The translations under genes were made by a program, and so were the position numbers. Shown here one piece after another: positions 19,011 through 29,487 of a DNA stretch of 35,289 bases (the stretch's first letter is position 1; each line of letters begins with the position of its first letter). The DNA is taken from contig JAJTXU010000021.1 in NCBI GenBank assembly GCA_021462845.1, positions 1-35,289 on the forward strand, given 5' to 3'. The DNA comes from Anaerolineales bacterium (GTDB taxonomy: Bacteria > Chloroflexota > Anaerolineae > Anaerolineales > Villigracilaceae). The notes beneath the pieces are model-generated. The model saw only the letters and a list, made by a program, of their open reading frames with translations, did not search any database and was not told the origin of the DNA.

Positions 19011-21296
19011 TCAGATGTGTGATGGGGAAGACACGCAAACACGAAAACCGAGGCCGTTGAGACGGTCGTCGGGATCGGTGTAGTTGCGATACGCACAGCG
19101 CGCGAAGTTTCGACCGTTGTAGAACGAGCCGCCGCGCAGGACGCGACTGATTCCCTTTTGCGGACCTTTCGGATTCAGCACGGGCGTGTCGGAGATACGA
19201 CCCTTATATTCCGAATCGCTGAACCAGTCGTTGCACCATTCCCACACATTGCCAACCATGTCGGCACATCCATACGGCGAGTCGCCTCCCAATGTGGAAT
19301 ATGCGCCGACGGGTGTTGTGCCTCCTTTCCTGCCATCGGCGGAATTACATTTGTTCGGGTCGAATTCATTTCCCCAGGGCCATTCATTGCCATACGCGCC
19401 CCGCGCGGCTTTCTCCCATTCCGCTTCGGTGGGCAGATGCAAGGACAAATCGCCCAGATCGCTCTTGAAGGTTTCGTTGAACCACTTGCAATATTCCATG
19501 GCGTCATTCCACGATACCTGCACGACAGGATGATCCGCCTTATCCTCCCATTTTTCTTTCGGGTCGGTAGGATGCGCCCAATTGACTCCTTTCACAAATT
19601 TTGATTGTTTGGGAGTCCAACCTCCTAGCTTGTCGGCAGTCGTTTCGTATTTTGTGTCTTTGATGAACTCTGAAAACTGGCGATTGGTCAAAATGAATTT
19701 CGCCATCCAGTAATCGTAAGAAAGATCAACGGTATGCTGAGGTTTTTCTCGATCCTGCGCCAGTTCGTTGTCATCCTTGCTTCCCATCACAAACCTGCCT
19801 TTTGGCACGCGCGCGAAGCGAATTCCGCCGATCTCCATCTCGTTACGCTCGCCACGCGGCGCAATCTTTTCACTGCGCAGAACAGCGGTTTCTTCTTCAA
19901 CAACCACTTCGGCAATGTCAGATACTGAAACTTTCTTTGGTTCTTCTACAGCAGATTTTACAGGTTCGGGCTTTGGCGGCGGAGCGGTCATGTAGATCAT
20001 CGAATCCAATGCCTCAGGCGTGAAATCGCCACTGAAACTCACTTGCTTCAAAACCTTTCTCAAACGGCGCGAGTCATCGTCTTCATAATCGGCAAATGAA
20101 CCACGTGCCGCGTCTTTCTCCTCTTGTGTTCCATTTTGCCATTTCAAGGCATCGAGAACAAAATTATGCCGAATTGACTTGTCGTCGAGTTTCGTCACCT
20201 GCGCAACGAACTTGGCTGGCGCGGCTCGCATGAGGGCTTGCCAACATATAAAATCGTCGCGGTTCACATCTTTGGCTTGATCTGAATTGACCGCCATGAA
20301 CCATTGCAAATTCAGATCGTTGATCACGTTCTTCACGCGGCGCGGGTTTACCTCGGCGGCGGCAACGAGAGCGCCCCAGCGTTTGAGCATGGCTTCGTCC
20401 ACTTTCGTTTTATCCTGCGTTTTCAAATACGCTTCCATCGCTTTTTCCACGATGGGCGGCAGATCGAAGCGCAGTTGAATGATCTTTTCGAGGTAATCCT
20501 TTGCGCCTTCGCCGATGATGCCTTCGTTCTTGTAATGCGTCTCGACGGCGGCGCGCACAATGCGCGTGTCCGCGCCGAGGACGAACACGCATCCGCTTTT
20601 ATCGAGGAACAACTTGATGGCTTCGAGGGTCTGAACGGTCTTGGCTGGCAGACAGCGGTCGAGATCGTCAATGAAAACAACGAGCGTTCCGTTGTCCGTC
20701 CAACTTTTTAGCAGAGCCTCGAACGCCTCGTTGAAATAATCGAAGAAGGCGGTATGCTGTTTGATCGGTGAAATTTCTTGATATTTGTTCGGGTCGAGTT
20801 TCAACTTGAAGTTCGCGCCCAGTCCGCCAAAACTGACCTCGAAGGCGTTGAACAACATGGCGATCACATCGTAGGACGGCTGGTTGGGGTCGCCGAACCA
20901 CGCCTTGATCTTGTTGATAAACCCATCCTTTTGCATCGCTTGAAGAATCACACGCACGAGCGCGACAAGCAGTTCATCCTCGTCGTTGTACTTCCACGCG
21001 TCGAACCACACGGTCTTGCACTGCCGAAATATATTTTCCTCGTCTTCGGCAAAACGATGTTTCCCCTTGTCATCCAACGGGTTGTCCAGCATATCCTTCA
21101 CGCGCAACAGCAGGGATGTCTTCCCCGAGCCCCACGCGCCGTTGATGCCGATGGCAAGCGGCGTTTCGGTGTTCGGGCTGGCGATCAGGCGCGCGAACGT
21201 GGCGGCGAAATCGTCGAAGTGAAAGTCCGCCCGCTTCGAACCAGTCAGCGGGGCATCGTGCAAAACTTCGGGAGTCTGGTATTTTCGTTTTGGCAT
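19011..21296 (-). CDS. KAP-family NTPase fused to FGE/C-type-lectin-like domain; probable former DGR target
   Basis: A 761-residue fusion. Residues ~20-430 are a KAP P-loop NTPase: Walker A GAWGSGKTS (~52-60) and Walker B LVVFIDDLDRCLP (~207-219), with RVKNVINDLNLQWFM in the helical lid region. After a linker (~440-500, PPPKPEPVKSAVEEPKKV) residues ~503-757 form a formylglycine-generating-enzyme-like (SUMF1) domain: FVMGSKDDNELAQDREKPQHTV, HPVVQVSWNDAMEYCKWFNE, LPTEAEWEKAARG, GNVWEWCNDW and RVLRGGSFYNG...GFRVC. The two Cys that catalyse formylglycine formation are missing from the segment after RGGS, so ligand binding rather than sulfatase modification is likely. The C-terminus matches DGR variable proteins of the FGE type. 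KAP proteins are often membrane-linked; here no transmembrane insert is evident. Confidence 0.88.
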   Translation of the reverse strand: MPKRKYQTPEVLHDAPLTGSKRADFHFDDFAATFARLIASPNTETPLAIGINGAWGSGKTSLLLRVKDMLDNPLDDKGKHRFAEDEENIFRQCKTVWFDAWKYNDEDELLVALVRVILQAMQKDGFINKIKAWFGDPNQPSYDVIAMLFNAFEVSFGGLGANFKLKLDPNKYQEISPIKQHTAFFDYFNEAFEALLKSWTDNGTLVVFIDDLDRCLPAKTVQTLEAIKLFLDKSGCVFVLGADTRIVRAAVETHYKNEGIIGEGAKDYLEKIIQLRFDLPPIVEKAMEAYLKTQDKTKVDEAMLKRWGALVAAAEVNPRRVKNVINDLNLQWFMAVNSDQAKDVNRDDFICWQALMRAAPAKFVAQVTKLDDKSIRHNFVLDALKWQNGTQEEKDAARGSFADYEDDDSRRLRKVLKQVSFSGDFTPEALDSMIYMTAPPPKPEPVKSAVEEPKKVSVSDIAEVVVEEETAVLRSEKIAPRGERNEMEIGGIRFARVPKGRFVMGSKDDNELAQDREKPQHTVDLSYDYWMAKFILTNRQFSEFIKDTKYETTADKLGGWTPKQSKFVKGVNWAHPTDPKEKWEDKADHPVVQVSWNDAMEYCKWFNETFKSDLGDLSLHLPTEAEWEKAARGAYGNEWPWGNEFDPNKCNSADGRKGGTTPVGAYSTLGGDSPYGCADMVGNVWEWCNDWFSDSEYKGRISDTPVLNPKGPQKGISRVLRGGSFYNGRNFARCAYRNYTDPDDRLNGLGFRVCVSSPSHI
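19044..19127 (-). other. variable-region-like segment at the end of the FGE-like domain
   Basis: Residues ~724-751, from SFYNGRN to RLNGLGF. Over half of its codons have the form NNC (TTC, TAC, AAC, GAC, CTC, GGC), as expected if adenine-mutagenesis acted on AAC codons of a template. It is followed by an invariant-looking GFRVC and lies ~80 bases before the reverse-transcriptase relic. No template repeat was found by eye in the window. Confidence 0.5.
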
Positions 21297-26384: not shown

Positions 26385-26444
26385 ATGGACACCAATGAGA
26401 AAATTCTCGAGCAACTGATCTCAAATAGGAGAAAAAAATGTTAA
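26385..26444 (+). CDS. short upstream ORF overlapping the ferritin start
   Basis: ATG 26385 opens MDTNEKILEQLISNRRKKC, 19 residues, with TAA at 26442-26444, seven bases into the ferritin gene in another frame. The ferritin Shine-Dalgarno (TAGGAGA) lies within its last codons. If translated, it would couple or compete with ferritin initiation. May be chance. Confidence 0.35.
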   Translation: MDTNEKILEQLISNRRKKC

Positions 26445-26932
26445 TCAGCCCTGAATTAGCAAAGGCAATAAATGCCCAGATCGGCAACGAGTTCGGCGCG
26501 AGTATGCAATACCTCAGTATCGCGGGTCATTTCCACGCGCAAAAGCTGACCCTGTTGGCAAAACTATTTTTCGAACAGGCGGAGGAGGAGAAAACGCACG
26601 CGATGAAGTTCGTGCATTACATCCTCGACACGCAAGCGGAACTTCAAATCCCCGCGATTGCCGCGCCGAAACCGAAATTTACATCCGCAGAAGAAGCGGT
26701 GAAAGCGGCTCTTGCCTGGGAGCAGGAAGTGACCGAACAGATCAAAGCCCTCATGGATCTGGCGGTCTCGCAAAACGATTACCTCGCACAGAATTTCCTG
26801 CAATGGTTCATAGACGAGCAACTCGAGGAAATCAATAAGATGGACCAACTGCTCAGCGTGATCCAGCGCGCGGGCGAGAAGAACCTGCTCATGGTGGAGG
26901 CGTATCTAATTCATAGCGAGAAGGCAGGATAG
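26438..26932 (+). CDS. ferritin (FtnA-like)
   Basis: A 164-residue non-haem ferritin. The four-helix bundle is clear: NEFGASMQYLSIAGHF (helix A, ferroxidase Glu), FFEQAEEEKTHAMKFVHYI (helix B, ExxH with Glu and His), EEAVKAALAWEQEVTEQIKALMDLA (helix C) and QWFIDEQLEEINKMDQLL (helix D). It oxidises Fe2+ and stores it in a 24-subunit shell. Strong Shine-Dalgarno AGGAGA. Downstream lies a cluster of palindromic repeats and a terminator. Confidence 0.93.
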   Translation: MLISPELAKAINAQIGNEFGASMQYLSIAGHFHAQKLTLLAKLFFEQAEEEKTHAMKFVHYILDTQAELQIPAIAAPKPKFTSAEEAVKAALAWEQEVTEQIKALMDLAVSQNDYLAQNFLQWFIDEQLEEINKMDQLLSVIQRAGEKNLLMVEAYLIHSEKAG

Positions 26933-27094: not shown

Positions 27095-27625
27095 TCACTG
27101 CACATACTGCGCAAACACAGATTCAAAATCCGCATCGCTGGTGAAGCCCACCCACTTTTTCAAAACGTTGCCATCGGGGTCGAGGAAGTAAACTTCAGGT
27201 TGGTAATAAAAGCCCAACGTTTGTTGAAAGTCGCGCGTGTTGGGGTCGTCGGCGTCAAGATACGTAAACTTGATCTTGCCGAAATATTTCGCTTCGAGCC
27301 CATGAACCATGGGCGCCATGGCGCGGCAGACACTTCAGGTAAAGCGGAAAAATTCAACGAACTGATATTGCCCGGAGGCGAGACTGACCGTGGAGGGATC
27401 TGTCGCTTCGAGGTTGGGTCCGCGCGAGGTGGCGACGGGGAGAGGCGGTTCGGTCGCGACGGGAGGCTGGGTCGCCGCTCCTTCAACCGACTCGACGGGC
27501 GGCGTGAGAGTCGCGCTGGGCAATTCGATGACGGGCGGCGCGGACGCAGGTTGAGTCGCTTGAGGGGCGCACGAAACGATGAGAAGGAGAAGCAGGCTGA
27601 ACGTCGGAACGAGGCGGGTTTTCAT
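27095..27625 (-). CDS. thioredoxin-like lipoprotein, probable selenoprotein (UGA = Sec97)
   Basis: One frame of 177 codons with a single TGA at 27335-27337. Residues 1-20 are a lipoprotein signal (MKTRLVPTFSLLLLLIVSC, lipobox IVSC), then a Pro/Thr-rich linker to ~residue 75. The thioredoxin fold follows: YQFVEFFRFT-(U97)-SVCRAMAPMVHGLEAKYFG, then TYLDADDPNTRDF, YYQPEVYFLDPDGNVLKKWVGF. TGA occupies exactly the first Cys of the CxxC site, giving UxxC, and the frame after it is intact. A SECIS-like hairpin lies at 27298-27314. It would act outside the membrane on disulfides or peroxides. The alternative, a Cys-to-stop nonsense mutation, also needs only one base change. Confidence 0.72.
27298..27314 (-). 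promoter_or_regulatory. candidate bacterial SECIS hairpin
   Basis: On the minus strand GCCCAUG-GUU-CAUGGGC: a perfect 7-bp stem with a three-base loop whose first base is G. Twenty-seven bases separate the UGA from the loop, within the spacing expected for bacterial SECIS elements, which lie in the coding region just after the UGA. A competing CCATGG/CCATGG hairpin is also possible nearby. Confidence 0.5.
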
Positions 27626-27831: not shown

Positions 27832-29487
27832 ATGGCTGGTTTCAAACTTACCTACGGCACGATGTTCAATCCGCCTGAGGCGCTGCATGAGGGATTCGAT
27901 AAAGCGGTTGCGAAGTTAAAACAAAATCTCGGCAAAGAATATGGAATGTTCATTGACGGCAAAGACGTGTTCTCGGACGAAAAGTTCGAGGATCACTCGC
28001 CCGTCAACACCAGTTGGACGCTGGCGCGGATGCAAAAAGGCAACGCGCTTCACGCGCGGATGGCGATCGAAGCGGCGCGGAAGGCTTTCCCCGCCTGGAG
28101 TCATACGCCGTGGCAGAAGCGCGTGGCGTTGGTGCGCAAAGCGGCGGCGTTGATCGAGAAGCGCATCTTCGAACTCGGCGCGGCGATGGCTCTCGAAGTC
28201 GGCAAGAACCGCATGGAGTCGCTCGGCGACGTACAAGAAACCGCCGACCTGATGTATTGGCCCGCGCAAATGATGGAGGAGAATAAAGGCTTCATCAAAC
28301 CGATGGGCAAAGATCCGCTCACGGGGTTCGATTCAACGAATGTCTCTGTGCTTCGTCCGTATGGCGTGTGGCTGGTGATCTCGCCGTTCAACTTCCCCTT
28401 CGCACTGACCGGCGGACCGACCGGCACAGCGCTTGTGGCGGGAAACACGGTGGTCATCAAGCCGGCGTCTGACACCGCATGGATCGTGCGGTTGTATGTA
28501 GAATGCTTGCGTGATGCGGGTATTCCGAACGGCGTGGTCAACTTCGTAACCGGTCCCGGCTCCACAGTTGGGCAGGCGCTGGTAGACAGCCCCGACGTGG
28601 ACGGCGCGACCTTCACCGGCTCGTTCGACGTGGGCATGAAGCTGTACCGCGATTTTGCGAACCGCAATTACGTCCGCCCGATCGTGCTGGAACTCGGCGG
28701 AAAGAATCCCGCCATCGTTTCGCGCAACGCGAATCTCGAAGATGCGGCGACAGGCATCTATCGCTCGGCATTCGGCTTGCAGGGACAAAAATGTTCGGCG
28801 GCTTCGCGTATCTTTGTGGAAGAGCCTGTGTACGATGAACTGATCGCCAAACTAAAATCAAAAGTGGACTCGCTCGTGATCGGCGACCCAACCGAACGCG
28901 CCACCTACATCGGACCGGTGGTCAACCAAAATTCGTACAGTGAGTTCAAGAATTACACCGAGGAGATCAACCAGGCGGGCGGGCGATTCCTCACCGGCGG
29001 AAACGTGAAGTCCGGCGGCATGTACGATCACGGCTACTACTGCGAGCCGACCCTCGTCACCAATTTGCCGTACGAGCATCGCTTGTGGAAGCATGAAATG
29101 TTCCTGCCCATCGCCACAGTCGGCAAAGTGAAAAATCTCGATGAAGCGATGACCATCGCCAACGATGTGAATTACGGTCTCACGGCCGGGTTTTACGGCT
29201 CGCCAAAAGAGACCTCGTGGTTCTTCGACAACATCCGCGCTGGCGTCACGTACGCGAATCGTCCGCAAGGCGCCACGACCGGCGCGTGGCCCGGCTTCCA
29301 ACCCTTCGGCGGCTGGAAAGGCTCCGGCTCAAGCGGCAAGAACGGCGGCGGATACTATTACGCACAGTTGTACATGCACGAGCAGATTCAAACGCTGGTG
29401 AAGCCTGCGGCAGCCAAGAAGGCAAAAGCGACTGTCAAGAAGAAACTTGCAAAGAAAAAGATCGCGAAGAAGAAATCGCGCAAGTAG
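27832..29487 (+). CDS. pruA: 1-pyrroline-5-carboxylate dehydrogenase-like ALDH with lysine-rich tail
   Basis: A 551-residue aldehyde dehydrogenase. VISPFNFPFALTGGPTGTALVAGNTVVIKPA is the cofactor-binding stretch typical of P5C dehydrogenases, LELGGKNPAIV contains the general base region, GLQGQKCSAASRIFVEE carries the catalytic Cys, and FQPFGGWKGSGSSGKNGGGYYY is the C-terminal substrate loop. It would oxidise glutamate semialdehyde to glutamate with NAD+. The last ~28 residues (AAAKKAKATVKKKLAKKKIAKKKSRK) are an added histone-H1-like tail. TGGAGGAAGT before the ATG gives a strong ribosome site. The 205-base region upstream holds a degenerate copy of the 16-bp repeat unit and its inverse. Confidence 0.9.
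   Translation: MAGFKLTYGTMFNPPEALHEGFDKAVAKLKQNLGKEYGMFIDGKDVFSDEKFEDHSPVNTSWTLARMQKGNALHARMAIEAARKAFPAWSHTPWQKRVALVRKAAALIEKRIFELGAAMALEVGKNRMESLGDVQETADLMYWPAQMMEENKGFIKPMGKDPLTGFDSTNVSVLRPYGVWLVISPFNFPFALTGGPTGTALVAGNTVVIKPASDTAWIVRLYVECLRDAGIPNGVVNFVTGPGSTVGQALVDSPDVDGATFTGSFDVGMKLYRDFANRNYVRPIVLELGGKNPAIVSRNANLEDAATGIYRSAFGLQGQKCSAASRIFVEEPVYDELIAKLKSKVDSLVIGDPTERATYIGPVVNQNSYSEFKNYTEEINQAGGRFLTGGNVKSGGMYDHGYYCEPTLVTNLPYEHRLWKHEMFLPIATVGKVKNLDEAMTIANDVNYGLTAGFYGSPKETSWFFDNIRAGVTYANRPQGATTGAWPGFQPFGGWKGSGSSGKNGGGYYYAQLYMHEQIQTLVKPAAAKKAKATVKKKLAKKKIAKKKSRK

Follow-up and report, generated by a model that had tools for sequence, protein, structure and literature searches.

A conserved in-frame UGA and a covarying SECIS-like hairpin point to a selenocysteine-containing thioredoxin lipoprotein in Anaerolineae

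Thioredoxins carrying selenocysteine (Sec) in a UxxC motif (Trx, PF00085) are listed as experimentally verified in a table of PMC13188914, with WP_010956703.1 as an example, and seven Trx selenoproteins are counted in a table of PMC1794560. The table of PMC13188914 also holds other thiol oxidoreductases with an active-site Sec, namely DsbG-like, DsbA-like, TlpA-like and thiol:disulfide interchange selenoproteins, together with the thioredoxin-like UxxC proteins SaoT (NF040730) and the HUIPC-motif selenoprotein (NF047660). In the parts of the table covered, a Prx-like family is one of the few with the motif UxxU, and the PF00085 thioredoxin has UxxC. For the Chloroflexi, three selenoproteins are counted in the table of PMC1794560, and Sec formate dehydrogenases are described in PMC5736913 and PMC4959059; the latter adds Sec translation factors and records a Sec elongation factor in A. 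thermophila UNI-1, where no dehydrogenase carries a Sec annotation. Among the titles and abstract openings listed from a mostly open-access collection, none concerned a family of thioredoxin lipoproteins with Sec, and the strings chloroflex, lipoprotein and anaerolin have 0 occurrences in the main text of PMC13188914, PMC12013277 and PMC9312934.

The gene analysed here lies in a 35,289-nucleotide stretch of an Anaerolineales draft genome; this whole stretch is referred to as the window. An earlier note, made from the letters of the window, had read two adjacent frames at 27095-27625 as one gene broken only by a TGA at codon 97. We confirm this, the frame being open on both sides of that codon. 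The interval also stood; the strand was absent from the note, and the gene is in fact on the minus strand. Its parts are as follows.

27095..27625, minus strand: complete gene, ATG at 27625 and terminal TGA at 27097-27095; 176 residues with one internal UGA, orthologues aligning over 1-176
27569..27625, minus strand: signal peptide and lipobox L-I-V-S-C (residues 15-19), from sequence; Cys19 is the predicted lipid-anchored residue
27389..27568, minus strand: linker rich in Ala, Pro and Thr from the anchor to the thioredoxin domain, from sequence; pLDDT 66-80 per block over residues 21-70
27098..27388, minus strand: thioredoxin domain, residues about 80-176 (PF00085, AlphaFold, Foldseek)
27335..27337, minus strand: UGA codon 97, predicted selenocysteine and first residue of U-x-x-C; of the 55 readable genomes, 51 have TGA here and four TGT/TGC
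27326..27328, minus strand: Cys100, resolving residue of U97-S-V-C100; invariant column in 62 aligned rows

With TGA read as U, the minus strand translates as MKTRLVPTFSLLLLLIVSC...FVEFFRFT-U-SVCRAMAPMVHGLE..., in which the internal TGA at codon 97 stands in the context F-V-E-F-F-R-F-T-U-S-V-C-R-A-M-A-P and the terminal TGA is codon 177; the plus-strand translation of 27095-27625 is unrelated to the thioredoxin product. The lipobox consensus is [LVI][ASTVI][GAS]C, and L-I-V-S-C at residues 15-19, judged on the motif, agrees with that of a bacterial lipoprotein. Cys19 is conserved in at least 90% of the 62 aligned rows; signal peptidase II would cleave the precursor at this site, and Cys19 would be lipidated.

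The domain behind the linker is a thioredoxin by sequence and by predicted structure. With C put in place of U, PF00085 is the sole Pfam family to pass its gathering cut-off (28.3 bits against 23.5). The thioredoxin equivalog TIGR01068 reached 29.8 bits against a cut-off of 96.8, so we describe the protein as one that would work like a thioredoxin and do not file it as TrxA. The AlphaFold model has a mean pLDDT of 85.7 and a pTM of 0.64, with 93-98 per block in the thioredoxin domain. Each of the 50 PDB matches listed by Foldseek is a thioredoxin, by itself, in a fusion or as part of a complex. A sequence profile search of the PDB gave 248 matches; among the 60 listed, thioredoxins and protein disulfide isomerases predominate. 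The hallmarks of the thioredoxin fold are a redox motif that starts a long helix and a conserved proline; both are present, as helix 98-113 follows U97 and P143 is invariant.

Among the described families, the protein is closest to the Sec thioredoxin of PF00085, with which it shares the thioredoxin family and a predicted Sec in the first position of U-x-x-C (PMC13188914, PMC1794560). It has a long linker behind a lipoprotein signal, features by which it may differ from WP_010956703.1, and it lies far below the TIGR01068 cut-off. The DsbG-like, DsbA-like, TlpA-like and thiol:disulfide interchange selenoproteins are likewise thiol oxidoreductases with an active-site Sec; however, they are assigned to other models in the table of PMC13188914, whereas the window protein passes PF00085 only. 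SaoT and the HUIPC-motif selenoprotein resemble it as thioredoxin-like UxxC proteins, but NF040730 and NF047660 are absent from its nine NCBIfam matches (E up to 1). The protein can thus be classed, from its sequence, as a UxxC thioredoxin of known chemistry in a membrane-anchored subfamily. The earlier note had called selenocysteine in an exported thioredoxin-fold lipoprotein unusual; this holds in part, since UxxC Sec thioredoxins are already listed as verified in PMC13188914, whereas an exported lipoprotein of this type, and the fact that it is conserved, appear, against the titles, abstract openings and tables covered, to be new.

The internal TGA is a shared character of the family. A protein search of 101 genomes, the window's own included, gave matches in 77 at E 0.001, and taking matches down to 2.1e-21 as family members left 56 of the 101. 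At codon 97, 51 of these 56 genomes have TGA, four have TGT/TGC (G086, G093, G068 and G081) and one is frameshifted (G074). All 34 named GTDB loci have TGA at this codon, and the closest named relatives are Anaerolineales MAGs with up to 81% identity; the two collections overlap, their 91 extracted places reducing to 77 distinct stretches. The four close Cys homologues run uninterrupted. With either TGA or Cys at this codon, all 55 readable genomes agree with the proposal that the UGA takes the place of the first Cys of a thioredoxin C-x-x-C. Beyond the site, the frame is conserved, and P143, G152 and G160 are invariant among the 62 aligned rows; the domain downstream of the UGA is better conserved than the linker upstream. 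The single frameshifted copy, in G074 (L107), has the TGA and breaks frame before the hairpin described below. As SelA of G074 is likewise in two adjoining pieces, the break may reflect assembly indels or decay. A tandem pair of family copies, each with TGA and hairpin, was observed in G065 (L088:1353-1940 and 1947-2402).

Downstream of the UGA, the hairpin (GCCCAUG-GUU-CAUGGGC) was found just as the earlier note had described it.

27298..27314, minus strand: predicted bacterial SECIS hairpin of 7 bp, GUU loop at 27307-27305, 27 nt from UGA to loop (covariation, recoding test, bSECIS rules)

The bSECIS rules given in PMC13188914 are a loop of 3-9 nt, a stem of 4-16 bp, a G in loop position 1 or 2 and a distance of 16-37 nt from the UGA. 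Checked against these geometric rules, the window hairpin fits in loop (3 nt), stem (7 bp), G (first in the loop) and spacing (27 nt).

The hairpin is maintained by compensatory change. In an alignment of 71 distinct orthologues, made without L107, the four Cys copies and a copy containing an N run, 95.8% of the cells of the 7-bp stem are paired, a value that 0 of 500 shuffles reached. Both partners have changed in 17 cells (12 from A-U to G-C, and 3 and 2 from C-G to U-A at two different pairs); neither this count nor the covariation score was reached by any of 500 shuffles. Two of the five covariation measures were matched by shuffles, namely the number of pairs with both-side changes (23/500) and further pair types (149/500). 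Control structures obtained by sliding the stem pair 13-49% of cells; the slide by -1 also has 17 double-change cells, all in one pair, and its covariation score is 0.111, the unshifted structure scoring 0.139. The seventh stem pair is broken in 17 sequences, and RNAalifold recovers the five core pairs unaided.

These five core pairs all form in 71 of 72 TGA orthologues, a set that now contains the N-run copy, and in 17 of 18 other TGA homologues, compared with 2 of 15 Cys homologues; the exceptions are the Cys homologues L146 and L149, which form all five, and the TGA homologue L109, which forms one. The four close Cys copies retain three of the five apiece. The loop G-U (columns 31-32) is present in 72/72 TGA orthologues. 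When the same proteins were recoded synonymously, all five core pairs arose in 1400 of 14200 draws, the sequences being related and the draws hence not independent. Conservation of the TGA together with the hairpin, seen in 71 distinct stretches, is beyond chance. Folded alone, the 60 nt from the UGA gave a z of -0.63, with 46/200 shuffles at least as good; the signal lies in the conserved, covarying upper stem. Codon entropy, as a fraction of background, was 0.49 in the five hairpin codons versus 0.73 in 23 others (p 0.04), a marginal difference, and low entropy is also seen in conserved codons off the stem (R at -3, T at -1 and T at +2).

The host genome has the machinery to use such a signal. 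The search for it that the earlier note had called for recovered SelA (456 bits, cut-off 22.8), SelB (363 bits, cut-off 242), SelD (351 bits, cut-off 125) and tRNA-Sec (64.5 bits, cut-off 47), the last with anticodon tca by ARAGORN. Neither of the refuting outcomes that the earlier note had named for such checks, a genome lacking the Sec machinery or homologues frameshifted after the site, was observed, apart from the single G074 copy. A formate dehydrogenase alpha subunit of this genome also has one TGA, with GGUCU at the top of the hairpin behind it. Its SelD (L018, forward frame 1) has an in-frame UGA of its own, in the context T-C-A-G-U-A-S-K.

Across the collection, SelA is present in 49 of the 51 TGA genomes, in one of the four Cys genomes and in 34 of the 45 genomes without the gene; in this tally G074 was set aside, three weak matches were scored as absent and G038 was counted among the TGA genomes with SelA on a piece at a contig end that scores below the cut-off. 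In the two TGA genomes without SelA (G029 and G066), SelB passes its cut-off and tRNA-Sec scores 73 and 72 bits. No SelB passes the cut-off in the three Cys genomes that lack SelA, and their best tRNA-Sec matches (43.8-48.4 bits, two of them just above 47) are about at the level of second-best matches elsewhere. As these three share one genus, the correlation between SelA and the residue at codon 97 amounts to about one event. The fourth, G086, has Cys at the site and 3/5 core pairs in the hairpin, yet it has SelA, SelB and tRNA-Sec; possession of the machinery thus does not force the use of Sec.

Gene, fold, the UGA at the catalytic position, the covarying SECIS-like hairpin, the Sec machinery and their conservation were each computed here. 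The conserved UGA, the covarying hairpin and the Sec machinery together point to a real selenoprotein, an extracytoplasmic, membrane-anchored thioredoxin into which Sec would be inserted at UGA 97 by means of the hairpin, and we put the probability of this reading at roughly 95%.

Three other readings were weighed. The UGA might be a true stop that ends a functional lipoprotein of 96 residues, with occasional leaky readthrough, as UGA also serves as the terminal stop of the gene; we consider this very improbable because the domain downstream of the UGA is better conserved than the linker upstream, the hairpin follows the SECIS rules, the four close Cys homologues run through the site and SelA accompanies the TGA in 49/51 genomes. 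Alternatively, the UGA might be decoded as cysteine or tryptophan, by a Cys-charged tRNA-Sec-like molecule or through a change of code. Cys-inserting tRNA-Sec-like tRNAs do exist in nature, but the genome has a complete Sec pathway, SelA and SelD included, and the hairpin matches the SECIS rules, so that this decoding seems to us highly improbable as well. Genome-wide reassignment of UGA can be rejected, as UGA is the ordinary stop of this same gene. A pseudogene, made by a nonsense mutation or a sequencing error at the catalytic Cys codon, has in its favour that TGT/TGC is one step from TGA and that the assembly is a draft of 362 contigs, but it is rejected, in keeping with the earlier note's judgement that a random nonsense mutation was the less likely explanation, and is hardly credible: the identical TGA recurs across 51 genomes from many genera and at the 34 named loci of the overlapping collection, the frame and residues past it are kept (P143, G152 and G160), and the hairpin covaries.

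For the selenoprotein, we infer Sec incorporation, lipidation, the direction of electron flow, a partner and a substrate along the following lines. SelB and Sec-tRNA-Sec would bind the hairpin after codon 97 and place selenocysteine at the UGA. The chain would then be exported and lipidated at Cys19, and the flexible linker would tether the domain to the outside of the membrane. There, U97 and C100 would cycle between selenol/thiol and selenenylsulfide and, on exported proteins, would reduce oxidised thiols or similar groups, the likely substrates being exported thiol proteins or oxidised residues. Electrons could come from the cytoplasm through a membrane protein of the CcdA/DsbD type. This is plausible, as the window genome has one DsbD_TM match; however, all 14 genomes tried have a match (13 over the cut-off), six of them without the gene, and the choice of electron donor is therefore a guess.

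The history of the subfamily can be read in part from its distribution. Among 400 sampled genomes of the phylum, with at most eight candidates scored per genome, 258 have a match at E 1e-10. Eighteen matches in this sample fall below 1e-40; each of them has one TGA and comes from the class of the window, and the next best stands at 8.4e-25; among the matches listed, the weaker ones mostly have no internal stop. No match was found in 72,556 plasmid records, and hence there is no sign of a plasmid origin. A quick tree was made of 102 rows, 89 with Sec and 13 with Cys (Sec column masked, midpoint root); its columns are few and its branches long. In it, the four close Cys copies are nested among 73 Sec rows in a group with an SH-aLRT of 97, and the state changes six times overall, two of these changes being forced by well-supported branches. 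Within the subfamily, Sec is thus probably ancestral and Cys secondary. The family may be viewed as a natural experiment on the upkeep and loss of a SECIS element, in which TGA copies compensate and close Cys copies are each down two core pairs.

Wider relatives extend this picture. The window's own genome has a second Sec thioredoxin-like frame (L113:2612-3055, plus strand) with a lipobox-like start and the motif S-G-T-U-M-E-C-R, downstream of a SulP-like transporter frame; both identities were assigned by eye. Further relatives (L115-L118) have Q-S-P-Y-U-x-x-C-T. Of 20 matching places in 17 of the 101 genomes searched, eight are thioredoxin-like copies with U-x-x-U (L154-L158 and L171-L173), in five genomes (G012, G026, G098, G094 and G069). 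All eight have two in-frame TGA codons followed by the same five core pairs, and may possibly be double-Sec active sites; the two that were read from their start look like lipoproteins. The Prx-like thiol:disulfide oxidoreductase (UxxC or UxxU) of PMC13188914 shares the double-Sec motif with them, but it is listed as PF00578, whereas two of the U-x-x-U relatives came up instead with the profile of the window's thioredoxin family. Close to the U-x-x-U thioredoxins, further frames, with U-L-P-U and without this hairpin, were seen in L172 (near 725, plus strand) and L173 (near 744 of the reverse complement); at a guess by eye, these may be Prx-like selenoproteins.

We would lay even odds on a broader proposal, that the Anaerolineae have, on the outside of the membrane, a thiol-redox system that is based on selenium and so far undescribed. 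It would consist of Sec thioredoxin lipoproteins (the UxxC protein of the window, the second UxxC protein of the same genome and the U-x-x-U proteins), with one hairpin serving two UGAs 9 nt apart to give a diselenide site, and with ancestral Sec later replaced by Cys as the hairpin decayed. The U-x-x-U relatives bear on whether one SECIS can serve two adjoining UGAs. In addition, the family is a candidate explanation for Anaerolineae that have Sec factors but no known Sec enzymes. The host lineage is little cultured. Wherever the internal UGA is annotated as a stop, the gene is cut in half, and a conserved redox enzyme is then easily missed.

The neighbourhood of the gene is partly conserved, its divergent neighbour being the following.

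27832..29487, plus strand: aldehyde dehydrogenase family gene (Pfam Aldedh, 440.5 bits)

An aldehyde dehydrogenase lies inside the 5-kb flank at 30 of the 34 named loci, more than 2 kb off in L052 and L059; the conserved place of this neighbour supports orthology and gives no functional clue. The ferritin-like gene at 26438-26932 is near the gene in 3/34 named loci. Elsewhere in the window, a minus-strand frame of 761 residues at 19011-21296 joins a KAP P-loop NTPase domain to a sulfatase-modifying-factor (FGE) domain.
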